A DNA stretch of 64,000 bases, taken from positions 62,001 to 126,000 of the forward strand of contig JABABA010000004.1 of assembly GCA_014238415.1 (NCBI GenBank), read 5' to 3'. The notes under the pieces were generated by a model. The model did not search any database, was not told where the DNA came from, and saw only the letters and a list, made by a program, of their open reading frames with translations. The DNA is from Planctomycetota bacterium (lineage in GTDB: Bacteria; Planctomycetota; UBA1135; GCA-002686595). Both the position numbers and the translations under genes were made by a program. Position 1 is the first letter of the stretch. The number at the start of each line of letters is the position of its first letter. Shown here piece after piece: positions 29,877 through 45,250 of the stretch.

Positions 29877-30362
29877 TCAAGAACTGTCGCGGTGACCTTC
29901 CACGCCGGTGCACTCGATCCCGTTGCGCTTGAGCAGGGCTGTCGTGACTCCAGGTCCGGGCACCGCAATCCCGTCCACATGGGTGGTGCAGACCCCGCAC
30001 GATGGCGATCGTTCCTTGAGGAAGGCGCGGGTCAGTTGGTGTTCCTGGCAGAGTTCAAGAGCTCCTCGTGCTCCTGCCATGAACTCATCCGTCACATTCC
30101 TGCCCTCTGCGGTTCGAAGACCAGTCTCGCCATCCAAGACCGCTGACGCGTCGTCCCTCTCTATCCAGGCCGCAGGCCGTGGAGTCGACAGGCCTCCATG
30201 CTCTTCGGGACAGAATGGCACCGCCCTCATACCCTCTTGAGTCAATTGCTGCTCCAGGGCCCGATCCCGGTTGTGCCCCCCGTCATAGCGGCAGGTCTGG
30301 CCGAGCAAGCAGGCGCTGACCAGGACCTCCTGGAGGGGAACTTTCGTGGGATCCGCAGACAT
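29877..30362 (-). CDS. DUF523 family protein
   Basis: VSACLLGQTCRYDGGHN, PFCPEEHGGLSTPRPAAW, LKERSPSCGV. Confidence 0.9.
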   Translation of the reverse strand: MSADPTKVPLQEVLVSACLLGQTCRYDGGHNRDRALEQQLTQEGMRAVPFCPEEHGGLSTPRPAAWIERDDASAVLDGETGLRTAEGRNVTDEFMAGARGALELCQEHQLTRAFLKERSPSCGVCTTHVDGIAVPGPGVTTALLKRNGIECTGVEGHRDSS

Positions 30363-30374
30363 GACCCCATCCTA
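30363..30374 (-). promoter_or_regulatory. Candidate -10 element TAGGAT, 6 nt upstream of the ATG at 30362
   Basis: Minus strand GGGACTAGGATGGGGTCATG. Confidence 0.45.
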
Positions 30375-30547
30375 GTCCCTCCTGTGGCCGCCATAGCAAG
30401 TTCAGGCGCACAGCACCACTTGACGGCAAACGGGGCCCGCTCCTATCCTCTTGCCCCTTCTGTTGCGAGGCTGGTTACGGCTGCCGGCAGAAGGGGTAGC
30501 CTCAGGGTCCCCAAGAGCCCGTTTCACCCCCCCCAGAGTTTCGCCCC

Positions 30548-31645
30548 ATGCGCCCGGTCCAAGTCCTATTCCTTCCTCTTGCTCTCGTTCTTCTGCCCTC
30601 TCTTCAGGCGGACACGATTCATCTGACTGATGGCACTTCGATTGAGGAGGTAAAGGTCAAAGAAGAGACTCTGCAGGGCGTGACCTACAAGGAAGGGCGT
30701 GAGGAGACTTTGGTGCAGAGTAATCGCATCCGCTCGATCACCTTCAGTCCCTTGCCGGCATTGATTGACCGTGCGGAGGCGGGTCTTGATGAGGATCAGT
30801 ACATGGGTGCGGTGATGGGCTACGAGGAGTATATCGCCCAGAACAGCGAGCCCGAGCGCAAGTATCCCTGGGCTCTGCCCTATGCCTATTATCGTGTGGT
30901 TGAACTGCAGCAGACCATGCGTGAATGGGATGCGGTGGTTGTCGCGGTTGATCGCTTGCTGCTCAAAGCAGGGACCTCGCGGTATGCACCTCTGGCGATG
31001 ATCAAGAAAGCAGAAGCACTCTATGATGGGGGCAAGCCCAAGCAAGCCATCGCAGTCCTTGATGAGCTGACCCAGTTGAGCAAGAGTGCCCAACTCGGTG
31101 GGCGCTGGGATATTGAGGCCGACTTGCGCCGGTTGCTATTTGACACCCGCCTGAAAGGGCAGGAGCGAGTCAGGAAGCTCGAAGCGGTGTCCTCTCGTGC
31201 GGGCGGTCTGTACAGGTCCGCCTGGGGCCGAGCTGAAGTGGCTATTGGCGAGAGCCTGCTCAAGGACAACGATCAGGCAGGTGCCGAGAAAGTCTTCCGT
31301 GCGGTCATCAAGGAAGACGGTTCTGATCGATACTCTCGTGCTGCTGCCTGGTCAGGTGTGGGCGCCTGTTTGTTCAACCGAGCCGCTGCCGCTACCGAGG
31401 CTGGTGAGGACGGGGCAGCGGCCATCTGCCGCGAGTCGGCCTTGGCACACATGCGTGTGTTGGTGCTTTATCGTGACCAGACTCGGTTCCTTTCCGGGGC
31501 GCTTTATTGGGCTGGTCGCAGCTTTGATCTGATTGGCGATGAGGAGAGTGCCGATAGGGCTCAGCGGCTCTATCGCAAGGTGATTCGTAATCACAAGGGG
31601 ACGCGTTGGGCTGAAGAGGCCCGAGCGTTCTACAAGAAGCGCTGA
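30548..31645 (+). CDS. Secreted TPR-repeat protein
   Basis: Signal peptide MRPVQVLFLPLALVLLPSLQA then DTIHLTDGTSIEEVKVKEETLQGVTYKEG and TPR-like helices. Confidence 0.65.
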   Translation: MRPVQVLFLPLALVLLPSLQADTIHLTDGTSIEEVKVKEETLQGVTYKEGREETLVQSNRIRSITFSPLPALIDRAEAGLDEDQYMGAVMGYEEYIAQNSEPERKYPWALPYAYYRVVELQQTMREWDAVVVAVDRLLLKAGTSRYAPLAMIKKAEALYDGGKPKQAIAVLDELTQLSKSAQLGGRWDIEADLRRLLFDTRLKGQERVRKLEAVSSRAGGLYRSAWGRAEVAIGESLLKDNDQAGAEKVFRAVIKEDGSDRYSRAAAWSGVGACLFNRAAAATEAGEDGAAAICRESALAHMRVLVLYRDQTRFLSGALYWAGRSFDLIGDEESADRAQRLYRKVIRNHKGTRWAEEARAFYKKR

Positions 31646-31868
31646 ATTCCCGGCCGTTGGTTTGGAAAAGGTCAGCTCAGCAGCTGCCCCAGTCAGAATC
31701 ACCCGCGGACCTGCTCGGTTTCCGGCTATTTTCTTGGTGCCGGGAAAGAGACGAGGCAAGGGCTCTGATGAGCGTTTCGGGAAGCTTCACTGGCAGATTG
31801 GGCCCCTCGTATCCACTCTTTCGGGGTGGCTGGGGTGACACCTGCTGCTGGCCTGGGTCGCGGGTCAG

Positions 31869-32591
31869 ATGAAAACCCAATGTGATTGTGGTCTCTTGCC
31901 CTGCATGAAGACCAATTCGAATCTCACCGAGGCGGAGTCCGTAGAGCCTCCCCGCGCACCAAGGGTCTCCGAGTGGGAGAGCTATACTCAACAGCATTCG
32001 TGGCTCGTGGGCCGTCTCGTAGCGGGTGGTTGCCACAAGCAGGATGCAGAGGATGTGGCTCAGGAGGCTCTCATGAAGGCCTGCCTGCGCACCCGAGAGG
32101 GCCGCGACTTGCACAGGAAGGAGGGTTGGCTGTTGGTCGTGGCCCGGAACATCGCTCGCGACCGTGTGCGGCGCTCGCGTCCTTTCGAAAGGAATACGGT
32201 GCAATTCGAGAACATCGAACAGGTCGATCCCTCGGCCTCTCTGATTGAAGAGAAGCGCCCCGAAATCCGCGCCGAGCGAGTCTCCAGCCTGTTACGCAAG
32301 ATGTTTGAGGCCTACTGCAGCTTGCGTGATCGAGATCGAGTCGTGCTTTGTGCATGGTGCCTTACAGAGGGTGATGCGGGACGTACCGCCAAGGCTCTCG
32401 GCCTGCGCCGCAAGGCGATCAAGGTGTGTATCTTCCGGGCTCGTCAGCGCCTGCACAGGCGCCTGGTGCGGCAAGGAGGTGAGGACCAGGTCCCGGGACT
32501 GGACCAGATGTTGCGGCTTACCCGCCGGGTGCAGGCGCCTTCCAAGGGGCATGTACACGGCGACGGGGGGCTACAGTGCGCCGATGGCTGA
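31869..32591 (+). CDS. ECF-type RNA polymerase sigma factor
   Basis: Region 2 QDAEDVAQEALMKACLR...KEGWLLVVARNIARDRVRRSR; region 4 GDAGRTAKALGLRRKAIKVCIFRARQRLHRRL. Alternative start 31905. Confidence 0.8.
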   Translation: MKTQCDCGLLPCMKTNSNLTEAESVEPPRAPRVSEWESYTQQHSWLVGRLVAGGCHKQDAEDVAQEALMKACLRTREGRDLHRKEGWLLVVARNIARDRVRRSRPFERNTVQFENIEQVDPSASLIEEKRPEIRAERVSSLLRKMFEAYCSLRDRDRVVLCAWCLTEGDAGRTAKALGLRRKAIKVCIFRARQRLHRRLVRQGGEDQVPGLDQMLRLTRRVQAPSKGHVHGDGGLQCADG

Positions 32592-33154
32592 TTCTCCCGT
32601 TGTTGGCCCTCGCTGTTCTTCCGGTACGGTGGCACGGAGGCGAATCAAGGGCGTCCTTGCGGCCCCAACCTCATCTGCGGGTGCGTACTCGTGTGGCGGC
32701 TCGTGCAGGGAACAAGGCTGCGCCCCTGGAACTGGTGGAACAAATGCTCGAGTTGGAGAGCAGCAACGGTCTCGACGGCGCTCTAGCGGCTGAATGGCTT
32801 TTAATTGGACGTTTGTTCGGGTACCTGGGGCATCAAGAGGCTGCACAGATCGTCTTCCGCTGGGTCGAGTGCCGTGCGAGGGAAGGTGGATGGCGTGCGC
32901 GCGCGGCTCATGAGGCGCTTAAACTGCTTGCGCGCACCCCGAACACCGTAACCAGCGAGGATTGGGTTGCTCTGGGGCTGGCACACGCCCTACCGGAGGA
33001 GTTGATCGAGCAAGTTGCAGTGAGATGTGCCAAAAAAGGGGACTCGCTCTCGCGAGAGAGCCTCTTGCAGGCAGTTGAGAAGCGGCGCACGGGGGATAAT
33101 GGATGGAATCCACCTCGCTTGCGTCGAGAATTACGTGTTCTGCTGGGTGACTAG
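32576..33154 (+). CDS. Secreted helical protein of unknown function, overlapping the ECF sigma gene
   Basis: GTG start inside the sigma 3' end; signal peptide MRRWLILPLLALAVLPVRWHGG; alpha-helical body. Confidence 0.5.
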   Translation: MRRWLILPLLALAVLPVRWHGGESRASLRPQPHLRVRTRVAARAGNKAAPLELVEQMLELESSNGLDGALAAEWLLIGRLFGYLGHQEAAQIVFRWVECRAREGGWRARAAHEALKLLARTPNTVTSEDWVALGLAHALPEELIEQVAVRCAKKGDSLSRESLLQAVEKRRTGDNGWNPPRLRRELRVLLGD

Positions 33155-33748
33155 CACCTAATCACATGGTTGTGAGGGTGTTGTGTCGTGCGGACAGCGT
33201 GCAATTTGTCTGCAAGCGACAAGTGTGGCACGAAAACTGCATCATGGAAGAAGATATCGTGCTGGTGCGCCAGTTATTGGCCTCCAGGTTTCAGCTTTTG
33301 CAGCCATGGCTCGTCCATAGACCCAAGAATTTTTTCATTCCAATCGCAATCGATCCTTTCGTTGGGGCTTTTGTTGGGGTATGAAACATGTTCTCTGGTG
33401 ATCTGAGTCTTCACCTTCAGGTGTTGCGTCATGCGTAACGCAGGGAGCGAAGACGAGGTGACCTGGGGAAAGCCACAACATCGGATGGGGCGGCCTTGCC
33501 ATTTGGAGAGGTCGTCCCGTCTTATGTTTGCAGGGCAAGTTTCCTGTTGTGGCCTGTTTGCCTTGGTGCCGAATTCAACCCTAGAGGCCTGTTGGAGGCC
33601 AAATGGGGATGATTTGCAGTTCAGCCGATTGTCAGTTCGAACTCTGCTCAAGCCAGGAGCGTGGTTCACTGGGCCGCTGGATGAGCAGGCGAGGAAAGAG
33701 GCAAACTAACCCGCGAGATGTGAAGAGCCTTCGTTTGGCCCGGGTCTT

Positions 33749-35050
33749 CTAGCGTCCGACGCCGTGATATTTGAAGCCCATCTTCTCCAGAGTTTCCTTG
33801 GGCCAGACGTTCCGTCCGTCGAAAATAATTGGCTGATTGAGCCCTTTTTGGATCGCTTCGAAGTCTGGTCTGCGAAATTCGTTCCATTCCGTCACCAGGA
33901 TAAGGGCATCGGCTCCATCTATTGCGCTCATGGGGTTCGGAGCGTACGTGATGCGGTCCCCAAGATGATGTTGACGGCAAAAGTCCATGGCCTCGGGGTC
34001 GTGAGCGGTGATCGTGGCTCCAGCGGCCAATAATTCTTCGATTACAACCAAAGAAGGAGCCTCGCGCATGTCATCCGTATTGGGTTTGAATGCCAGGCCC
34101 CAGATACCGAAGCGCTTGCTGGACAGATCTGCGCCGAATTCGGCTTTGACCTGGCGTACCAGAAGGTGTTTCTGGTCCTCATTGACCGCTTCTACTGAGC
34201 GTAGAACTTTGAAGTCCAGATCGTATTTGCCCGCCGTGCTGACCAGAGCCTTGACGTCCTTGGGAAAGCATGAACCACCATAGCCAACTCCTGCGAAAAG
34301 GAATCTTGAGCCGATGCGCTCATCAGAACCGATTCCAGCGCGTACCTGGTCGATGTTGGCCCCGACCTTTGCGCACAGGCTGGCGATTTCATTCATGAAA
34401 GAAATGCGCGTGGCCAGCATGGCATTTGCCGCGTACTTGGTTAGCTCGGCTGAAGGCACGTCCATCTGCAGGATCGGATTGCCTGTGCGCACAAAGGGCT
34501 CATAGAGTTCAGCCATTATACGTGCCGCGCGGTCGGAGTTCGCACCGATGACCACCCTGTTGGGCTTGAGGAAGTCTCCGATGGCAGCGCCCTCTTTCAG
34601 GAACTCCGGGTTTGAGACCACATCGAAGGGGTGCAGGGCCACTTCTTCAATGGCTCGGGTCACTTTTTCGGCGGTGCCTACGGGGACCGTTGACTTGTTC
34701 ACGATGACTGCATAGCCGGTCATGTTCTCGGCAATCAAGCGCGCGGCGGCCAGCACGTACTTCACATCTGCGCCGCCGTCTTCACCTGGTGGCGTGCCTA
34801 CTGCAATGAAGACTACCTGGGCATTCGGGATGCCTTGGGCATAGTCGGTGGTGAAATTCAGGCGCGAGTCGCGCATGTTTCGATGCAGCAGTTCTTCTAG
34901 GCCAGGTTCATAGATGGGGACCTTGCCCTCATTCAGGTCATCAATCTTGGTCTGGTCGATGTCGATGCAGGTGACGGTATTTCCGCTTTCCGCGAAGCAG
35001 GTGCCCGCGACTAATCCGACATATCCGGTTCCAACAACAGCAATGCGCAT
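33749..35050 (-). CDS. ugd: UDP-glucose 6-dehydrogenase family
   Basis: MRIAVVGTGYVGLVAGTCFAESGNTV, GVGYGGSCFPKDVKAL, FGIWGLAFKPNTDDMREAPS. Confidence 0.95.
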   Translation of the reverse strand: MRIAVVGTGYVGLVAGTCFAESGNTVTCIDIDQTKIDDLNEGKVPIYEPGLEELLHRNMRDSRLNFTTDYAQGIPNAQVVFIAVGTPPGEDGGADVKYVLAAARLIAENMTGYAVIVNKSTVPVGTAEKVTRAIEEVALHPFDVVSNPEFLKEGAAIGDFLKPNRVVIGANSDRAARIMAELYEPFVRTGNPILQMDVPSAELTKYAANAMLATRISFMNEIASLCAKVGANIDQVRAGIGSDERIGSRFLFAGVGYGGSCFPKDVKALVSTAGKYDLDFKVLRSVEAVNEDQKHLLVRQVKAEFGADLSSKRFGIWGLAFKPNTDDMREAPSLVVIEELLAAGATITAHDPEAMDFCRQHHLGDRITYAPNPMSAIDGADALILVTEWNEFRRPDFEAIQKGLNQPIIFDGRNVWPKETLEKMGFKYHGVGR

Positions 35051-35140
35051 GGGGTTATTCTCCCGGTGGGGGGGGGGATTCCTTCCTGGGGGTCCATAGG
35101 TTATCGTCTTGGGGCGGGTTTCCCACCCGTCAGCTTCCTG

Positions 35141-35217
35141 GGGCGATTAGCTCAGCTGGTTAGAGCGGCTCGTTTACACCGAGTAGGTCGGGGGTTCGAG
35201 TCCCTTATCGCCCACCA
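35141..35217 (+). tRNA. tRNA-Val (anticodon UAC), CCA encoded
   Basis: GGGCGATTAGCTCAGCTGGTTAGAGCGGCTCGTTTACACCGAGTAGGTCGGGGGTTCGAGTCCCTTATCGCCCACCA folds as a cloverleaf; loop TTTACAC. Confidence 0.97.
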
Positions 35218-35242
35218 GGAAGCGGGGCACTGGTATAGGTCT

Positions 35243-36430
35243 TCAGCGGGCCGGTTCCGACTCTGGGTCCAGCAACCAGGCCTGGTGCCCCTCCTCCAGA
35301 CGCCCTATGGCCAGGATCGCCCGGCGGCTCCCTCGCCCCCGAAAACGCCGGGCCAGCACTTCTGCGGGGTCCGGATGACCTCGTTTCCAAATCTCCAAGG
35401 GGCCCACATCGTGGTCAGCCAGCATGCGGCGCACCCGCCGTGGGTCAGCCCGGGTGCTGGCAAGGACCCGTCTGCACTTGAAGAAAGGAGAAGAGGGCTG
35501 CTCTTCGCCCCCGACCCAGGCCAGCTGAGGAGCTAGGGGGCGCAGGCCGTGGCGGCTGGCCTCGAGTTCGAGCAGGCCACTGCGAAGGAGGGCGGGATCG
35601 GGATTGGCGAGCCAGTCAATGCTCTGCACATGCCTGGGGTCCATGGGGGCCATCCTGATCGGTTCGCCTTCAAGAACCTCCTCACTTTTGCCACCTGTGA
35701 GGGCAACCACTCGACGAGGGGGGCCGTCCCATGCTGCAAGTCCACTGAACAGTGCGACTTCTTTCAGTTCGCGCTCGAAGCTGACCCAGCAGAGGGTGCC
35801 AAAACTGAGCAGGTCTTCCGTCGGGGTCAGTGAGGGGGGGAGCTTCAGGCATCCCATTCCCGCCTGCTTGAGGACCTCCAGGCACTTCTCCATGGAAGGG
35901 GACCAGGTATCGGGATCCAGACTGCGCCGGTTGTTCTTACGCCGATCCGGATCGATCAGAACTCCCGCAGGACGCGCAGCGCGCTCAGTGGCATCGCAGC
36001 GCAGTACAAGGGAGCGCGCCCCGGGACTTGCAACTTCATTTAGATTGTGCGCCGCACAGGCAACAGTTCTTGGATCCAGATCGCTTGAAATCAGGTTTTG
36101 ACCTTGATCCAGAAGGGCCAGGCTGTCTGCTCCAAGGCCGCAGGTAGCGTCCCAAAGTGGTCCCCGAGCAGGGGTCCTGGTCAGTTCGCGAGCGCGCCAG
36201 GCAGCGACCATTGGATGGGTTGCTTGCTCAAGTCCCTTGCGTGTCAATAGTAGGAATCGATTGTCTCCGCGTTGGCTGAAAGCTCTGCGGCGCAGGAAGT
36301 ACTGTTCGCTAGCTGCTAAAGCCTGTTCGACACTTAGGGTTTTCCGCAATAAAGATGCGACTTCAAGATCTGTTGCATTTTTTGGAAGATCGTCCAAGAA
36401 ACGCAACGCCCTGTGTCCGAGGATGGTCAT
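35243..36430 (-). CDS. Class I SAM-dependent methyltransferase with THUMP-like domain
   Basis: LWDATCGLGADSLALLDQGQNLISSDLDPRTVACAAHNL, VLIDPDRRKNNRRS. Confidence 0.75.
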   Translation of the reverse strand: MTILGHRALRFLDDLPKNATDLEVASLLRKTLSVEQALAASEQYFLRRRAFSQRGDNRFLLLTRKGLEQATHPMVAAWRARELTRTPARGPLWDATCGLGADSLALLDQGQNLISSDLDPRTVACAAHNLNEVASPGARSLVLRCDATERAARPAGVLIDPDRRKNNRRSLDPDTWSPSMEKCLEVLKQAGMGCLKLPPSLTPTEDLLSFGTLCWVSFERELKEVALFSGLAAWDGPPRRVVALTGGKSEEVLEGEPIRMAPMDPRHVQSIDWLANPDPALLRSGLLELEASRHGLRPLAPQLAWVGGEEQPSSPFFKCRRVLASTRADPRRVRRMLADHDVGPLEIWKRGHPDPAEVLARRFRGRGSRRAILAIGRLEEGHQAWLLDPESEPAR

Positions 36431-36532
36431 TAAGAGAGAAGAGAACGATCTGCGAGAGTCGACCTCAAGAGAGAGCGCAAGCGTTTGTGCTGAGGTGCGT
36501 TGGCCGCAGAAAAACTAAAGGAGAATATCAAC

Positions 36533-38413
36533 GTGATTCGAGTTCTGCTCGTGGAGTCTGACTCCGCAGAACGGCTTGTTCTATCGAGCCGACTATCCGA
36601 TTTTGGATATCAGGTCAGTGTCGCTGATTCAGGATTCAGCGCCCTTTCCATCGCTTCTGAGGAGCATACTGAAGTGGTGCTCCTGTCCGCAGCCCTTGAC
36701 GGGGAGCTCGGCGCTACTGAGGCAACAAAGAGCCTCAGGGACATCCTAGTGCATTCAGGAGTCCCTATTCTGGTCTATCGCCAGGGCGGGATCTCAGCCG
36801 AGCGTGTGCAAGAGTTTTATCAAGCTGGCTGTGATGCAATTCTTGATCGCTCTGAGATGGCAGCAATCCAAAGTGTGCTGGGGGCCTATCAACGGACCTT
36901 CCGCCGCCTCAATGAGCTTGGCGTCCAGAACCGCATAGTAGCCGGGCAGGTTCGGCGCATGGAGGAGGAGCGGGCACAACAGGCACCTGTGGCGGAGCCC
37001 ATGTCCCAAGGGTCTTCTCCAAGGCCTGTAGGCCTGGTGGTCGTTGACAGCCAGGGAATCGTGCGCCATGCAGATCGTGGAGCGCTCAGCATAGTCAGTT
37101 CAAAGTGTATCGGGCAGCGTCTGGGAGCAATATCTCCTGGCACTGGCCTTGAGGGGTTTGTCCGTGATGCGCACCTGGGCAGCCAGCGGAGCTTTCGAAT
37201 GGAGTTGCGCAGTCGTGGAGATCTACCTAATCGCTTTCTCGGTGTGCATGTCGTTTCCACAGCGCTTGGTTCGCAGAACGGCGAACCCAGTCTACGGGTC
37301 GTCCTGTTTCATGAGCGCGACGCCAGACAAGAAGAAACGACCAAGGACAGCTCCAGCACCGGTATCGCCGAGAAGGACTTCGATGAGCTCTTGCTGATGG
37401 CGCACCGTTACTACACTCCTGCAGCAATAATTGGCTCCGGGCCGACTACCCGTGCCCTGAAGAGTTGTGTGGCGCGTACGGCCAAGCGATCTGGGTGCGT
37501 GCTGATTCGTGGTAACCAGGGGTCCGAGCGTGACTTGATCGCTCGAATCCTGCACTACTCGGGCAGTTCCAATGGCACATTGGTCAACTTCTCCTGTGGC
37601 GGTGTTCCTGTCACGAGCGAGCAGGCGATCCTTTTGGGGGGAGTTGTCAATGGCAAAGCACGGTCTGGCCATCTGACCGCAGGAACAGCAGGCACTCTGA
37701 TCTTGGAGAACGTGGAGAAGCTCGATCCCAGCGTGCAGGCCCAGCTTGCCAAGTTGTTGGACCGTGGGGTCCATGACAAGGGACAGGGGATTGAACGGGT
37801 CGCTATGCGCCTTGTGGCCACTTCTACTGAAGACCTTGAGGAACTCGCCGACCGTGGTGAATTTGATCCAGTGTTGCTGGGTCACCTCTACCACCATCGA
37901 ATCGATATTCCTGCCATGTGTGATCGTCAGGAGGACCTGCAAGAGATTGTGCAGGGGATTCTGGACGAGAACGGCGACTCAAGGGGTGTGATGCGCGCTA
38001 GTACCCAGGCTCTGGACCTGTTGGCTGAGCAACAGTGGCCGGGTGACCTTGAGGAACTCAGATCAGTGGTGTCCAGCGCTGCAAATCGTTGCGAGGGAGA
38101 TCTACTCGATGTTGCGCAGTTGGCTCCCGTCCTGGGCCTTGATCCCTTGCATGCGCGAGCCCGAGAGGTCCAACGTGTGCCCGTTGCACATGTGGCACAA
38201 CCTGCGGCTATTCGTCATCAGCCAGGTTCTTCTGGCAGAGGTGGTCCTTGGGCCATCACGGAGGAGGACCCCATCAGTCTCGACCATTACGAGATGAAAG
38301 CACTGTTGCGCGCATTGAATGCAACCCGTGGCGACAAACTTGAGGCAGCGCGTCTGCTCAAGCTTGGCAAGAGCACCCTCTACCGAAAACTCAAACGATT
38401 TGGGATTCGTTGA
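36533..38413 (+). CDS. Degenerate NtrC-like regulator: pseudo-receiver, PAS-like, pseudo-AAA+ and intact Fis-type HTH
   Basis: Start with AAGGAG SD at GTG 36533. Receiver-like IRVLLVESDSAERLVLSSRL; AAA-like AGTLILENVEKLDPSVQAQLAKLLDRG; HTH ALNATRGDKLEAARLLKLGKSTLYRKLKRFGI. Confidence 0.85.
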   Translation: MIRVLLVESDSAERLVLSSRLSDFGYQVSVADSGFSALSIASEEHTEVVLLSAALDGELGATEATKSLRDILVHSGVPILVYRQGGISAERVQEFYQAGCDAILDRSEMAAIQSVLGAYQRTFRRLNELGVQNRIVAGQVRRMEEERAQQAPVAEPMSQGSSPRPVGLVVVDSQGIVRHADRGALSIVSSKCIGQRLGAISPGTGLEGFVRDAHLGSQRSFRMELRSRGDLPNRFLGVHVVSTALGSQNGEPSLRVVLFHERDARQEETTKDSSSTGIAEKDFDELLLMAHRYYTPAAIIGSGPTTRALKSCVARTAKRSGCVLIRGNQGSERDLIARILHYSGSSNGTLVNFSCGGVPVTSEQAILLGGVVNGKARSGHLTAGTAGTLILENVEKLDPSVQAQLAKLLDRGVHDKGQGIERVAMRLVATSTEDLEELADRGEFDPVLLGHLYHHRIDIPAMCDRQEDLQEIVQGILDENGDSRGVMRASTQALDLLAEQQWPGDLEELRSVVSSAANRCEGDLLDVAQLAPVLGLDPLHARAREVQRVPVAHVAQPAAIRHQPGSSGRGGPWAITEEDPISLDHYEMKALLRALNATRGDKLEAARLLKLGKSTLYRKLKRFGIR

Positions 38414-38415
38414 TC

Positions 38416-39150
38416 ATGAGCACGGAAAGGGCACTGGACAACAGTTTGAACAGCTCCGTCAAAGGGGCCTCTCGTATCCTGCTAGTGGATGATGACCCCG
38501 GCGTAGGCACATTTATTGGGGAACTCATGCTAAATGCCGGCTACCAGTTCGACAGAGTTGGATCAGCCTTCGAGGCGCGCCGTGTTCTGGCCGAAGAGGG
38601 CCCGGCAGTGAACTTGATCTTGTTGGACATCGCCTTGCCGGACAAGAATGGTTGGGATGTCTTGCGCAACCAGCGCATGGGGGGAGATCAGACTCCGGTG
38701 ATATTTCTCTCGGCCCAATACGCTGTGGCCGACCGTATCCGTGGTCTGGAATTGGGTGCGGATGACTTTATCCAGAAACCGTTTCGCCCCGAGGAGTTGC
38801 TTGCTCGGATCCGTGCTGTTCTTCGTCGACACGAAATGTTGCCGAGCTATCGGGTTGGACCACTGAGCTTGGATCTTAGCCATCAAACCGCCAATGTCTC
38901 TGGACGACGGATTGACGTGTCTCAACGAGAATTCCAGGTTCTGCTGGCTCTGGCGCGTGCGCACGGGGGCATCTGTTCTCGTGCCCAGTTGCTAAGAGAT
39001 GTCTGGGAGTTGGATTCCGATCCGGGCACCAAGCTCCTGGAGGTACAGATTACCCGTCTGCGCAGCAAGCTGGCCCCAGAAGGCCGGGGCATGATCCAGA
39101 CCGTGATCGGTCAGGGTTATCGTATTGGATGGCTCCCTAGGGCATCATGA
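38416..39150 (+). CDS. OmpR-family response regulator
   Basis: ILLVDDDPGVG, LILLDIALPDKNGWD, GADDFIQKPFRPEELLARI, winged helix QREFQVLLALARAHGGICSRAQLLRDVW...VQITRLRSKL...IGQGYRI. Confidence 0.93.
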   Translation: MSTERALDNSLNSSVKGASRILLVDDDPGVGTFIGELMLNAGYQFDRVGSAFEARRVLAEEGPAVNLILLDIALPDKNGWDVLRNQRMGGDQTPVIFLSAQYAVADRIRGLELGADDFIQKPFRPEELLARIRAVLRRHEMLPSYRVGPLSLDLSHQTANVSGRRIDVSQREFQVLLALARAHGGICSRAQLLRDVWELDSDPGTKLLEVQITRLRSKLAPEGRGMIQTVIGQGYRIGWLPRAS

Positions 39151-41200
39151 GATCCGTGGGTGGCCCGGCTCCAGCAGCAGGGCTGCTTGAGCGCGTGCCT
39201 GTGTTGTAGAGCGTTGCGCGCAGGCTGTCGAAGTCACAGACCGCTTGGGCTGCCGCGAGATCGAATTCGATCAGGCGTATCGTCATGTCCTGTCTACCTT
39301 GCCAATAGAGATCTGTGCGCGCCAATACATGTCGTGGCGGAACTGTCACAACTTGTCCATAGGGGTTGATGAAGAAGGGTGTGTTGCGACCGCGTTTGCG
39401 CAACCTGATTTCCAGGTCAAGGATCTGAGGCATGGCGGGCTTTGGACTGTTCTTGGCGGCTGTCAATTCCACTCGAACCTTTCCTCCTACAATCTTGAGT
39501 TGCAAGCGCGGTTGAGCTTCGAGAGTCCGTTTCCGTAGCATGTGGAAGGGGCGGTAGTTTGCGCCTGGAGCCAAGAGGGGAACGGTGACCAACTCATAGT
39601 TCGCAAGGGGACCCCTGCTTTCGGGATCTCCGGCATCCGGGCCTTTCAAAAAGTCAATCCAGGCGCGCTCCATTCCCGGCAGGGGTGCGAGGTCTTCGTG
39701 CAAGCTCGGATCGATTTCACCCAGAATGACAAGATCTGCATCCTGCAGGTGATCCAGGTGCAGTTCTTCCCGCGCGCCAAAGGGGGATTGGGGGAGAGAA
39801 GTGCTGTTTGGAATGCGGCCGGTCAAGTCCCATACCCGGTTGCCGCGGGTTGGTAGGAGTTCGCCCTCAGCGGCGGGCTTGATACCTGCCAGATAACCCG
39901 TGGCTCCTGGCCAGGCGGTTGCGATGGTCAATTCTGGCGGTGTGTGGTCCCGTAGGAAAATTCCGAGAGCGCGCATGGATATTGTGTGATCAATCTCTGC
40001 CTGCAGCGCGAGCCGCCCTTGCTGTCTGGGGCTCGGGTTGGGGCCCACCTGATCCTGGGGGAAGTAGGCCGCCAGGGGCATGGGACCCCTGGGAATCATC
40101 CATTGGGTCATTGAACTCTTCAGTCGTAGGGGGCCAACATCCGCAGGGAAGCGGCTGGCCATGGCGCCAGCGCCCGCTACTCCAACCAGCGCCAGCCAGG
40201 CAAGGGTCTCCATCAGCCGTGATTCTGTGTCCAGCGCCACCAGGATGCCTTGTTGCAGGCACACGCAGAGCAGGGGCAGGGCGGGGGCCAAGGAGATATG
40301 CATGGCTGGGTCGGAGCCGCCTCCCATGATCACCAGGGCGATCCAACCTGTCGCCATCAGGAGCGCTCTTGCGCCATGACCTGAAAGACGCCCGCACAGG
40401 AAGGCTATCAGTGGGAAGGGAATCAGGATCGGTGTCACCCAGGCTACCAGGGCGTCTCGGGTGGAACTGATCCCATCTGCAAGGGTGCTGGCATCCGGTG
40501 TGAACAGTTGTTGGAGCCAGGTGCCATAGAGTGAGGTGCCGTCAAAGCGCTCCATGCGCATCATTAGCAGGAGGGCAATCAAGCCAGGGACAAAAGACCA
40601 AAGCGGTGCGGGTCTTCCACCATCCCTGCGGGGACGCAGCCGTTCATAGAGGCTGAGGATCAGCAGCAAGCCGAACATGGGTGCTCCCTCAGGTCGCAAG
40701 GCGATCAGGACTGGCAGGCAGAATGCCATGGCCGTCCAACGCCGGCGTTCAAATCCCACCCAAGCTGCGCTCAGGAAGAGAGTTACCGCGGCCCATTCCG
40801 TGCCACTGATTGCGGTTGCGGCCAAGGTGGCGTTGGCCACCAGCAGCAGGGGCGGAATCACTCCCGCCACCCGGTCCACGGAGAAGCGTGCGGTGGCTCC
40901 CAAGGTCAACAGGGCGCAGAGCACTCCCACTACTTGGGCGAAAAGGGTTACGGGCAGGTAGAGCCTCTCGGCAACTGCTGTCAGTGCAATCCAGAGAGGC
41001 GAAGGATAGGCCTCCCAGCCAATTGGTTCGCCCACGTTCCAGACAACTTCGCCGAAGTGCACCCAGTTGCGCGCCAGCCTGAAAGCCACATGGGCCACCT
41101 CGCGCGCGGGCCCGATTTCGCCGAATCCATCCACGTGGATAGCGAGGGCGTGTGCCAGCAGCACTGCCATCGCCAAGAGGAGCGCCATTACCCGCTTCAT
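39137..41200 (-). CDS. Multi-pass membrane protein, GT39/PMT-like, with large extracytoplasmic C-terminus
   Basis: Start at MKRVMALLLAMAVLLAHALAIH; about 10 TM segments then a soluble domain. Confidence 0.6.
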   Translation of the reverse strand: MKRVMALLLAMAVLLAHALAIHVDGFGEIGPAREVAHVAFRLARNWVHFGEVVWNVGEPIGWEAYPSPLWIALTAVAERLYLPVTLFAQVVGVLCALLTLGATARFSVDRVAGVIPPLLLVANATLAATAISGTEWAAVTLFLSAAWVGFERRRWTAMAFCLPVLIALRPEGAPMFGLLLILSLYERLRPRRDGGRPAPLWSFVPGLIALLLMMRMERFDGTSLYGTWLQQLFTPDASTLADGISSTRDALVAWVTPILIPFPLIAFLCGRLSGHGARALLMATGWIALVIMGGGSDPAMHISLAPALPLLCVCLQQGILVALDTESRLMETLAWLALVGVAGAGAMASRFPADVGPLRLKSSMTQWMIPRGPMPLAAYFPQDQVGPNPSPRQQGRLALQAEIDHTISMRALGIFLRDHTPPELTIATAWPGATGYLAGIKPAAEGELLPTRGNRVWDLTGRIPNSTSLPQSPFGAREELHLDHLQDADLVILGEIDPSLHEDLAPLPGMERAWIDFLKGPDAGDPESRGPLANYELVTVPLLAPGANYRPFHMLRKRTLEAQPRLQLKIVGGKVRVELTAAKNSPKPAMPQILDLEIRLRKRGRNTPFFINPYGQVVTVPPRHVLARTDLYWQGRQDMTIRLIEFDLAAAQAVCDFDSLRATLYNTGTRSSSPAAGAGPPTDLMMP

Positions 41201-41215
41201 GCGTGTGCCAAGGTA
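41201..41215 (-). promoter_or_regulatory. Candidate -10 element TACCTT, 9 nt upstream of the ATG at 41200
   Basis: Minus strand CACTACCTTGGCACACGCATG. Confidence 0.3.
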
Positions 41216-41252
41216 GTGTCTTGGCGGTCCAGGGTCCAACTGCTCTTGATTC

Positions 41253-42455
41253 TCAGGAGTCGGGGTGGATCCGCTCCATGTGGGCTGCACGCACTACCGT
41301 TTCTTCAATGGCGCCCAGATTGAGGTCCGCTTCGACGGTCTCGCATTCATCAGCCCGTGCCCTGAGGGCTGGCTTGCGGGGTTGGAATACCGTGCAGCAG
41401 TCGGGCTCCTCACGAATTGATACCTCGTAGGTGCCGATGTGCTTGGCCAGCCTGATTACTTCTTCCTTGTCGTAGGTGATCAGGGGGCGCAGGACCTGCA
41501 CATTGGCTGCGGCTCCGATGCATGCCAGGTTTTCGAGGGTCTGGCTGGCTACCTGACCCAGGTTTTCGCCGGTAATCAAGGCGCCTGCCTTAGAGCGACG
41601 CGCAAGATGGGAGGAAATGCGTTGCATTGAGCGGCGGTAGAGAATCGTACGCAGGCTCTCCGGGGCTCCATTACGAATCGTCTCCTGGATCTCAGCGAAC
41701 TGCACCTCGTTCAATTCGCTGGGGCCTTGCCAGTTAGCCAGTACGCGGATCAGGTCGCGGATTTTCATGCGTGACCCCTCACCGATGTAGGGCGGGCTGT
41801 GAAAACTGACGAAACTGACTTTGAGCCCACGTTTCATGGCAGACCAGGCGGCCACGGGGGAATCAATTCCGCCTGAGAGCAAGCAGAGGCCCCGGCCGAG
41901 GGTCTTGACGGGCAGGCCTCCGGGCCCAGGCAGGCGGTCCAGAAAGGCGAACACGCCTTCAGGACGCAGGTCGATGTTGAACTCGATATCCGGGTTCTTC
42001 ATCTGCACCAGCACAGGTGAGTCGTCGTCCAACATACCCTCAGCTATGGCAATAGCCAGGTCGCCAGACGTCATCGGAAAGTCCTTGTCCGCACGTTTGA
42101 CTGTGACCCGAAAGGTTGGCCGGGCTTCTGGTGGATACTCCTGCAGTTTGTTTGCCAAGAGCGTGCGACCCATGGCAATCATGGAGTCCAGGTTGCGTTC
42201 TGTATTCCAGGCGGGAGAAACCGATTTGGTGCCAAAGGTCTGGGCGCAGGCCTTCATTGCTTCGCGCCAGCGGCCTTCTGGTTGGATTTGGATGCGTCCC
42301 CAGCGGCGCGTAATTGTGCCGCCCCCCAGCGGCTTCAGGGCGCCGTGCAGATTGCGCACCAGTGTGTTTTCGAAACTCGCCCGATTTCCTCCCTTGAGGG
42401 CCAGCTCCCCATAGCGCAACAGCAATACATCTGGAACTCGCAGCTCGGTGATCAT
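41253..42455 (-). CDS. thiI: tRNA 4-thiouridine synthetase ThiI (short form, no rhodanese domain)
   Basis: THUMP region, PP-loop LLSGGIDSPVAAW, ITGENLGQVASQTLENL, EPDCCTVFQPRKP. Confidence 0.93.
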   Translation of the reverse strand: MITELRVPDVLLLRYGELALKGGNRASFENTLVRNLHGALKPLGGGTITRRWGRIQIQPEGRWREAMKACAQTFGTKSVSPAWNTERNLDSMIAMGRTLLANKLQEYPPEARPTFRVTVKRADKDFPMTSGDLAIAIAEGMLDDDSPVLVQMKNPDIEFNIDLRPEGVFAFLDRLPGPGGLPVKTLGRGLCLLSGGIDSPVAAWSAMKRGLKVSFVSFHSPPYIGEGSRMKIRDLIRVLANWQGPSELNEVQFAEIQETIRNGAPESLRTILYRRSMQRISSHLARRSKAGALITGENLGQVASQTLENLACIGAAANVQVLRPLITYDKEEVIRLAKHIGTYEVSIREEPDCCTVFQPRKPALRARADECETVEADLNLGAIEETVVRAAHMERIHPDS

Positions 42456-43618
42456 GGGGATAGCTTCTCCAAGCTCCTTGCGACCTTGTGCAGGGCATTG
42501 GCTGCAATGCCGATATCATTGGGAGTGGTTTCACGGGAAAAGGAAAAGCGTGCAATTTGGCGTGCCGAAGTTGCGTCCAAGCCCAATGCCAAGAGAGCTG
42601 GGCTGACCTCTTTCGATGTGGACTGGCAAGCTGATCCCACTCCGATGAAGACCCCGTGTTTTTCCAGATGATGCTGCCAGACTTCCGCTGGTGGTCCGGG
42701 CAAGTGCACCGCACAGATTGAATTCACGCATCCCTTCGTCTGCAAGATGTGCGCCCCGTCCATGCTGTCCTGATACACCAGGGAGATACCGGTCAAGGCC
42801 TCTTCCAGTTCGCGATGGCAGACTTCGGCGCTCTCCTTGAACGCTTGGCGACCCTCGTGTGCCAGATCTGCAGCCAGGGAGAATGCTGCGATGCTGGGTA
42901 CATTTTCTGTCCCAGGGCGCATGCCTTTTTCCTGCGAGCCACCAAAGAACAGTGGCCCAGTCTCTGAATTCGGGCCCATGACCAGTGCTCCCTGTCCCTT
43001 CGGTCCGTGAATCTTGTGGGCCGAAATTGCCAGACTGTCGATCCCAAGGTCTTCCAGGTCCAAATCCATCTTGCCGAGGGCCTGCACACCGTCGCAATGA
43101 AAGTGCACTTCCCCGCAGCGCGCCTTGGCCAGGCGGGCTAGCTGCTTTACCGGATAGTGCGTACCAAGCTCGTTGCTTACCAGCATCTGCGTCACCAGTA
43201 GCACCTCTTCGTTCATGCGCTCGGTGGCGTGATCCAGATCCAGTTGTCCATCGCGGGTCAGGCGGAGCGTCTCCACATCGAAGCCTTGCTTGGCTAGTTG
43301 AGCTGTCGCCAGGCGCACACTGGCGTGTTCGGTGGGCCCCATCAAGATGCGTCCAGGCCCTCGCTTGGGGACGCTACCCAGGATGCCCAAGTTGTTGGCT
43401 TCGGTGCCTCCCGAGGTAAACACGATGCCATTGGGCGCAGCGCCCACACAGCGCGCCAACTGTCGACGTGCGTGCTCCACCGTCTGTCGAGCCTGGATTC
43501 CAATCGCATGGCGCGAGGACGGATTGCCATGGACCTCATCCAGATGTTGAATCAGGCAATCGCGCACCCTGGGGTCCAAGGGGCTGCTGGCGGCAAGATC
43601 TAATAGGACAGGCTGCAT
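42452..43618 (-). CDS. Cysteine desulfurase (IscS/NifS-like)
   Basis: LDLAASSPLDPRV, GNPSSRHAIG, VFTSGGTEANNLGIL, ISAHKIHGPKGQGAL, GVGSACQS. Confidence 0.92.
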   Translation of the reverse strand: MQPVLLDLAASSPLDPRVRDCLIQHLDEVHGNPSSRHAIGIQARQTVEHARRQLARCVGAAPNGIVFTSGGTEANNLGILGSVPKRGPGRILMGPTEHASVRLATAQLAKQGFDVETLRLTRDGQLDLDHATERMNEEVLLVTQMLVSNELGTHYPVKQLARLAKARCGEVHFHCDGVQALGKMDLDLEDLGIDSLAISAHKIHGPKGQGALVMGPNSETGPLFFGGSQEKGMRPGTENVPSIAAFSLAADLAHEGRQAFKESAEVCHRELEEALTGISLVYQDSMDGAHILQTKGCVNSICAVHLPGPPAEVWQHHLEKHGVFIGVGSACQSTSKEVSPALLALGLDATSARQIARFSFSRETTPNDIGIAANALHKVARSLEKLSP

Positions 43619-43685
43619 GGGATCAGCCTTGCAGGATACCGTTGAAGAGGTGCCCTTGGGCGGGCTTGCGGTGTTGCCGATCCCT

Positions 43686-44666
43686 TTAGGGAAAGGGATT
43701 TGCCGTTCCGCCCCTTTGCACTGTGAGTGGTGTCTCCGCACCAGTGCCCCGTGCTCGCCAGCGAACGAGCCAGTTTCCTGCGGGCACATGGTTCCAGCGC
43801 ACCCGGCCTTCTGCATCAGTTTCAGCGGGTGGCAAGTTGGGCCCTTGGCCGTTGGCAGGGAGGGCCAGCACCAGAGCGCCGGCAATAGGCTCTCCATCTG
43901 CATTGCGCAGCATCCCGGCAATTGTTCCTGTATGTGTGATCAGCGGCAAGGGCTCAGGCCCCGGATGGGTCAGGCGCAGAGGGGATTCTCCCAGGGGTTG
44001 CAGGAGATCCCAATCGAGACCTACGGTTCCACCCTGTGCCAGCAGGCGCAGGGTCCAGGTTCCATGTTGCAGGTCCTTCACGGTGATGCGGGTCATCTCA
44101 CCGAGGGTGATTCGTCGGGGAGCGCGGTGAGTGGTCTGGGGCGCGCCCACCGGATCGAAGACCAGAACCATGTTCTCGGGTGAGTCGGTGGGTTGTGTCA
44201 GGAGCAGTTCGAGTTCCAGGTCCGACGAGGTCACGGCAGGTTGCTCCGGGGGAGTCACCAATTGGTTGCTGATTGTGATCTCCTGCACACCTGCACCGAC
44301 CTTTACCGTGACCTTGGTGGGTAGGCGGTGCAGCACCAGCACCGTGAGTTCCGCCTCGCCCGGCATGAGTTGGGGCAGCAGGAAACGACCTTCTTGATCC
44401 GTGCTGTCGCGACGCACTCGGGCGCCCTGGGTTGTGATCACCGTGGCGGCGGGGATCGGTTGGCCATTGACATCAGCAACGATGCCCGAGAGGTCCGTAT
44501 CTCCAAGCCCCAGATCTGGTGCCTCGAGAGCCTCGAACGGCGCGACCTCTCCAAATGGAGCTGCCTTGGGCGCTTCGCGGGTCAGGATCCAGATCACCGA
44601 GCCAAGAGCGAAGATGAAGACCAGTCCTGGAAAGCCAATGGTCAGATACCAGAGCGGGCGGTTCAT
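43686..44666 (-). CDS. Membrane-anchored carboxypeptidase-regulatory-like domain protein
   Basis: N-terminal TM; LSGIVADVNGQPIPAATVITTQGARVRRDSTDQEGRFLLPQLMPGEAELTV repeat fold. Confidence 0.7.
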   Translation of the reverse strand: MNRPLWYLTIGFPGLVFIFALGSVIWILTREAPKAAPFGEVAPFEALEAPDLGLGDTDLSGIVADVNGQPIPAATVITTQGARVRRDSTDQEGRFLLPQLMPGEAELTVLVLHRLPTKVTVKVGAGVQEITISNQLVTPPEQPAVTSSDLELELLLTQPTDSPENMVLVFDPVGAPQTTHRAPRRITLGEMTRITVKDLQHGTWTLRLLAQGGTVGLDWDLLQPLGESPLRLTHPGPEPLPLITHTGTIAGMLRNADGEPIAGALVLALPANGQGPNLPPAETDAEGRVRWNHVPAGNWLVRWRARGTGAETPLTVQRGGTANPFP

Positions 44667-45250
44667 TGGGATCTTCCTCGGTGCTCGGCCAGGCGGTTGT
44701 CGCTCAGCTCTTCCAGGAGGGCCGAGCGCAATTCTTCGCAGGGGGCGAAATCCGCGCATTCCAGGGCCTCCAAGACCCCGTGGAACTGTCTCAGATCTCC
44801 TCCACCGGCCCTTTCCAGCCGCAGCAGATGAACTCCTAGCTGCAGCTTGTCACAGATGTGCACAAAGGTCGCCTCGCGCGTCTCTTGGGATCCATATTCC
44901 TTGAAAAGAGCCTCTGGGAGGTCTCCCAAGGGAGTCACGAGTTCCTCTGCGAGGGCATCTTCCATGATCTTCTTGGCTCCAGGGGGCAGGTGGCGAGCCG
45001 CCGGAGTTGGCAGATCTCCCGAGGCTGCTTCTGGGGCATCGTGGAGCACCGCCATGGCGAGACACCGGCCGAGATCCAGGGGCGGTTCCACTTCTGGGGC
45101 CAGCGTCAGGGCCAGCCAGGCTACTCCGAGCACATGTCCCGCCACAGATTCGCCTCCTGGAGCCCCCGCCAGCAGCCAACCCGTGCGGGGCAGGACCTCA
45201 AGGGAACCCAGGGAAAGCAGGGCTTCGAGTCGTTTTGGGGGGAAGGTCAT
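44663..45250 (-). CDS. HD-domain phosphohydrolase (YfbR-like)
   Basis: GHVLGVAWLALTL, AMAVLHDAPEAASGDLPTPAARHLPPGAK; start at MTFPPKRLEALL. Confidence 0.75.
   Translation of the reverse strand: MTFPPKRLEALLSLGSLEVLPRTGWLLAGAPGGESVAGHVLGVAWLALTLAPEVEPPLDLGRCLAMAVLHDAPEAASGDLPTPAARHLPPGAKKIMEDALAEELVTPLGDLPEALFKEYGSQETREATFVHICDKLQLGVHLLRLERAGGGDLRQFHGVLEALECADFAPCEELRSALLEELSDNRLAEHRGRSQ

Follow-up and report, generated by a model that had tools for sequence, protein, structure and literature searches.

Sigma-54 activation requires the GAFTGA motif and ATP hydrolysis, and the known escapes from this ATP-driven scheme by homologues of bacterial enhancer-binding proteins (bEBPs) are individual cases (TyrR, VpsR, some NtrC). 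TyrR, DhaR, and HupR have an altered GAFTGA and act with sigma-70, and a GAFTGA defect was reported in 2011 for VpsR, YplP, and about 110 homologues (PMC3162934). The NtrC proteins of Rhodobacter capsulatus and Caulobacter, of receiver-AAA+-Fis architecture, have the GAFTGA deleted and work at sigma-70 promoters; the Caulobacter protein needs ATP binding and hydrolysis, and VpsR senses phosphate via its receiver Asp (PMC10274813). FleQ, a bEBP whose receiver cannot be phosphorylated, acts at the pel promoter with sigma-70 independently of ATP (PMC10723142). Here, we describe a gene of a marine planctomycete located at positions 36,533–38,413 (+) of a 64,000-nt stretch of contig JABABA010000004.1 (hereafter, the window). 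Its product is, quite probably, a DNA-binding regulator of bEBP descent that operates independently of phosphorylation, ATP, and sigma-54, probably on housekeeping promoters and with PAS-like or OmpR-type inputs.

The frame runs intact from a GTG at 36,533 to a TGA at 38,411–38,413 and encodes 626 amino acids, with a Shine-Dalgarno sequence (AAGGAG; 36,518–36,523, +), 9 bases 5′ of the GTG, that is kept in six members of the genus. Sequence, Pfam, and an AlphaFold model (mean predicted local distance difference test score, pLDDT, 79) delineate a pseudo-receiver, a coil, a PAS-like domain, a degenerate AAA+ with its lid, and a Fis-type helix-turn-helix (HTH); with a predicted template modeling score (pTM) of 0.47, the placement of single domains is more reliable than their mutual arrangement. 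Pfam scored Sigma54_activ_2 (61 bits), AAA_lid_14 (33 bits), and HTH_8 (35 bits) above their cut-offs, and Response_reg just missed its cut-off of 30.2, at 24.8 bits. Foldseek matched the AAA+ part to NtrC1, FleQ, PspF, and ZraR with template modeling scores (TMt) of about 0.7–0.89, the uppermost being that of NtrC1, and VpsR (PDB 7v2b) was also among the structural matches of the protein. The predicted NtrC-type AAA+ fold with lid, which is that of a sigma-54 activator, bears out the NtrC scaffold proposed in an earlier note made from these letters alone. That note had also named the receiver, AAA+, and HTH, all of which were recovered, but it left unmentioned the PAS-like domain at residues about 164–262 (37,022–37,318, +; 165–261 in the AlphaFold model), which is second only to the HTH in conservation. 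No Pfam PAS profile was detected in the window protein itself, where the assignment derives from the AlphaFold model, as does that of the preceding coiled-coil or linker (residues 119–163; 36,887–37,021, +); among family members, PAS_8 was detected in 10 of 27 and PAS_4 in 7 of 27 at E ≤ 0.1, with a best E of about 2e-4.

Within this predicted scaffold, the catalytic and phosphate-receiving residues are gone. In the pseudo-receiver (residues 1–118; 36,533–36,886, +), the phosphorylatable Asp of the NtrC class is replaced by Ser52 (VVLLSAA), Thr/Ser by Arg83 (VPILVYRQ), the acidic-pocket Asp by Ser9, and, in a milder change, Lys by Arg106 (DAILDRS). The degenerate AAA+ core (residues 297–462; 37,421–37,918, +) has Arg333 for the Walker A Lys (GNQGSERD; 37,511–37,534, +), Glu392-Asn393 for the Walker B Asp-Glu (TLILEN; 37,694–37,711, +), and a shortened loop 1 (LGGVVNGKARSGHL; 37,634–37,675, +) without the sigma-54-contacting GAFTGA. 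Both arginine fingers are replaced, by Asp445 and His451 (FDPVLLGHL; 37,862–37,888, +), and the lid (residues 463–535; 37,919–38,137, +) has Glu507 instead of the sensor II Arg (WPGDLEELR), that is, none of the residues that typify the bEBP ATPase is left. All motifs quoted earlier as evidence of receiver and AAA+ degeneracy were found as described, with the arginine fingers lost in addition, and the Fis-type HTH (residues 581–626; 38,273–38,410, +), said to be well preserved, is indeed intact and shows no non-synonymous divergence (dN 0) among close relatives. Judged by its sequence, the label of sigma-54 activator is not warranted for the window protein, as several of the features tested that define this class are missing.

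The same losses occur in all six genus members that carry the gene, the five congeners having mostly identical substitutions, which is far beyond chance. The standard residues are present in homologues of other families within the same order and in most bEBPs encoded by the window genome, and this genome encodes sigma-54 (rpoN) and canonical activators of the GAFTGA type, so the loss is specific to the window gene. Roughly 45 genomes of the family have contigs that span the locus, and in most of them orthologues occupy a conserved neighborhood, with the order ugd, THUMP-like gene, regulator (in some followed by an OmpR-type gene, sometimes by another degenerate copy), membrane protein, thiI, and nifS. 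These Planctomycetota are mostly represented by metagenome-assembled genomes; those of Planctomycetes bacterium Pla163 and Pla86 are complete and contain degenerate and tandem-copy forms. One syntenic orthologue of the family is fully canonical, most lack GAFTGA, and losses of Walker and finger residues follow. In a tree of 66 sequences, the canonical orthologue (L027/L107; GASGTGKE, GAFTGA, FLDE, FRDDLYYRL, and an intact receiver) sits on a short branch near the base, and the window genus at the far end, on a stem of 0.88. Counted as fewest changes in both directions, this tree requires 1 change for GAFTGA, 3 for the receiver Asp, 8 for the Walker A Lys, 10 for the Walker B Glu, 4 for the finger Arg, and 6 for the sensor II Arg. 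The orthologues thus form a progressive series from canonical to degenerate. The isolated decay that the earlier note had allowed for did not materialize, as the loss is clade-wide, albeit with this one early-branching canonical orthologue and many intermediates.

Despite its motif losses, the gene is constrained. Among close pairs of the window genus, the ratio of non-synonymous to synonymous substitution rates (dN/dS) is 0.13–0.20 for the whole gene, 0.12–0.18 for the AAA+, 0.08–0.11 for the PAS, and 0 for the HTH, similar to that of the neighboring genes (0.09–0.19), and neutrality of the degenerate AAA+ was rejected (P 1e-9 to 2e-6). Columns conserved at ≥90% number 17 in the AAA+ of the family versus 55 in canonical homologues of other families, 21 versus 2 in the PAS, and 18 versus 7 in the HTH, counts that are indicative given the small and more distant canonical set (n=9) and that point to a shift of constraint from the AAA+ to the PAS and HTH across the family.

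Two related genera go further. In g23 (G028, G071, G072) and g65 (G095, G101), the slot holds a protein of about 235–255 residues in which PAS and AAA+ are absent, the C-terminal part is the regulator's HTH (hhalign probability 99.5%), and the linker preceding it carries the family signature DDxPIxLxxYE. The N-terminal part of the g23 proteins is a degenerate receiver (hhalign 98%; Foldseek receiver matches) that reads LILVNAQF at the phospho-Asp strand, without a phosphorylatable Asp; Pfam recognizes HTH_8 in them, and this combination of receiver fold and HTH_8 without AAA+ is the RegA kind of architecture. In g65, Pfam finds HTH_8 only, and the receiver was read from the alignment. The g23 forms also evolve under purifying selection (dN/dS 0.14–0.16). 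In a ugd tree, g23 and g65 both fall within the 15-row clade that holds the window genus, beside different sisters, and two separate AAA+ deletions seem the better reading, a single origin being disfavored, though not rejected, by the approximately unbiased test (p-AU 0.068).

The DNA upstream of the gene offers candidate binding sites. A palindrome found by inspection, TTCCCA-N4-TGGGAA, lies with at most one mismatch upstream of the regulator in eight relatives, all with the receiver Asp intact (the G063 copy was read directly from sequence). With G063 excluded and kinship uncorrected, it accompanies 7 of 17 regulators with intact Asp versus 0 of 15 that lost it (Fisher p 0.008). The shorter TCCCA-N4-TGGGA precedes the regulator in 7 of 37 lineages, compared with at most 3 in shuffles, and has only 4–7 sites per genome where present. 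This candidate site suggests that the shared HTH binds DNA specifically and that the regulator controls its own gene. For the window genus, a dyad at 36,474–36,491 (AGCGCAA-GCGT-TTGTGCT) is the candidate operator, with a single mismatch-free occurrence in each of G000, G001, and G005, at the regulator locus. Its genus form, AGCRCAA-N4-TTGTGCT, is similar in geometry to the family palindrome; most other sites genome-wide lie inside open frames. RNA structure of the regulator leader gave no signal (z 0.53). Derivation of a regulon from TTCCCA-N4-TGGGAA was abandoned, with 4–7 relaxed sites per genome and an L212/L229 pair that resembles terminator stems. In another pair (L217/L223), from two genera, the shorter TCCCA-N4-TGGGA form marks the beginning of a membrane glycosyltransferase-like gene, which does not suffice to infer a regulon; another NtrC-like protein with degenerate AAA+ motifs adjoins that gene in both (G014 and G013, respectively).

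An orphan response regulator of the OmpR type, its Asp and Lys intact, starts two bases after the regulator stop (38,416–39,150, +) and is a probable co-transcribed partner. Such a gene lies next to the regulator in the window genus and in G008, G019, G024, G026, and L120, all in the clade that lost the Asp, and the phosphorylation input may have moved to it; no histidine kinase was seen among the open frames examined at window positions 30,000–45,000. We propose that the ancestor was a sigma-54 activator of receiver-PAS-AAA+-Fis architecture and that phosphate reception, ATP hydrolysis, and sigma-54 contact would all have been lost in the window genus. A dimer would bind DNA via the Fis HTH and act as a repressor or as a class I/II-type activator on housekeeping (sigma-70-type) promoters. 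Its activity would be set by the PAS-like domain or the pseudo-receiver, or through association with the co-transcribed OmpR-type partner, and the inactive AAA+ shell would provide a scaffold for dimerization and spacing. It also seems reasonably likely that this one syntenic slot records the conversion itself: GAFTGA would have been lost before the phospho-Asp and ATPase residues, and the PAS-AAA+ part then excised, once or twice independently, with the HTH staying in place and control perhaps passing to the PAS-like domain and the newly adjoining OmpR-type regulator.

The predicted fold, the selection on the gene, the invariant HTH, and the AAA+ deletion in two genera all fit the idea, put forward in the earlier note, of a DNA-binding regulator that is built on an NtrC scaffold and needs neither phosphorylation nor ATP. 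Two observations weigh against it. The AAA+ is retained and constrained in the window genus though related genera deleted theirs, and may still bind a ligand; and the clean family palindrome was not found upstream in the window genus, the best match in the window having 4 mismatches (P 0.49). In an alternative reading, the AAA+ is a ligand sensor, not an ATPase, and a nucleotide such as c-di-GMP controls DNA binding. Purifying selection on a retained fold and the structural match to VpsR speak for it, as does the precedent of FleQ and VpsR, c-di-GMP-binding proteins that work at sigma-70 promoters (PMC10723142, PMC10274813). With the Walker A Lys and the sensor II Arg gone, and with two related genera doing without the whole domain, we nevertheless regard it as rather unlikely.

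The retained fold, together with the at least seven bEBP-type AAA+ proteins of the genome, could also belong to a dominant-negative subunit that enters mixed rings with the cell's canonical activators and dampens them. Such a role is highly improbable, since the invariant HTH and the AAA-less orthologues point to function via DNA and the interface has lost residues such as the arginine fingers. Nor do we give much credence to a DNA-bound helper, inactive in its own AAA+, that would assist another activator at sigma-54 promoters: the genome does retain sigma-54 and canonical activators, but the clade lost GAFTGA a single time, close to its base, with no later regain. Simple decay of a gene that is still open would account for the many motif losses and the long stem leading to the genus; it is next to impossible and was rejected, as the dN/dS values reveal purifying selection on every domain, neutrality is refuted, and start, Shine-Dalgarno sequence, and open frame persist in six genus members, in line with the earlier view that this is no pseudogene.

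Further observations concern sigma factors and the surroundings of the locus. The rpoN gene was located at G000:C11:316071-317612. Decay caused by genomic loss of sigma-54 was rejected, given the presence of rpoN and GAFTGA-type paralogues. Most family genomes have two divergent rpoN genes, and window-genus members with the regulator and g23 mostly one; a strict tie between decay and loss of the second rpoN was not adopted, as g65 has two copies. An open reading frame at 31,869–32,591 resembles a sigma factor of the extracytoplasmic function (ECF) type, poorly conserved (about 30%) in the same neighborhood of many relatives. The conserved gene order spans 33,749–43,921 of the window, the THUMP-like gene being methyltransferase-like and the membrane protein glycosyltransferase-like. 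Second degenerate copies of the regulator (L038, L039, L040, L041, L042, L049) stand in tandem in G007, G008, G022, G024, and G026; in G016, a different contig carries the second copy. These copies are often more degenerate still, one lacking most of the Walker A region.

Orthologues in this one neighborhood sample the steps of the escape, and the order of losses and any residual use of the dead AAA+ shell are therefore testable, for which Pla163 and Pla86 may offer an experimental entry. For most members of this family, the annotation "sigma-54-dependent regulator" is probably erroneous. Regulators of the RegA/PrrA/ActR type combine a receiver with a Fis HTH and have a working receiver; the short forms of g23 and g65 share this architecture, but with a degenerate receiver, and emerged at the locus of an NtrC-type gene. 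Like TyrR and VpsR, the window protein descends from a bEBP, has lost GAFTGA, and has retained the Fis HTH. TyrR (ACT-PAS), DhaR, and HupR have other input domains, and the loss in the window protein appears more complete. VpsR of Vibrio cholerae, similar in structure (PDB 7v2b), uses its receiver Asp and binds c-di-GMP, whereas the window protein lacks this Asp and all ATPase motifs and has a conserved PAS-like domain between receiver and AAA+; we know of no such domain in VpsR. FleQ of Pseudomonas aeruginosa keeps an active ATPase and the sigma-54 loop, in contrast to the loss of the ATPase motifs and GAFTGA here, and the NtrC proteins of R. capsulatus and Caulobacter keep the phospho-Asp (PMC10274813) that the window protein has lost. 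No description of this planctomycete family was found in the literature searched, which left most subscription journals out of reach. By its sequences, the family appears to exceed the known cases, having lost all these features together and, in two related genera, even the whole domain.
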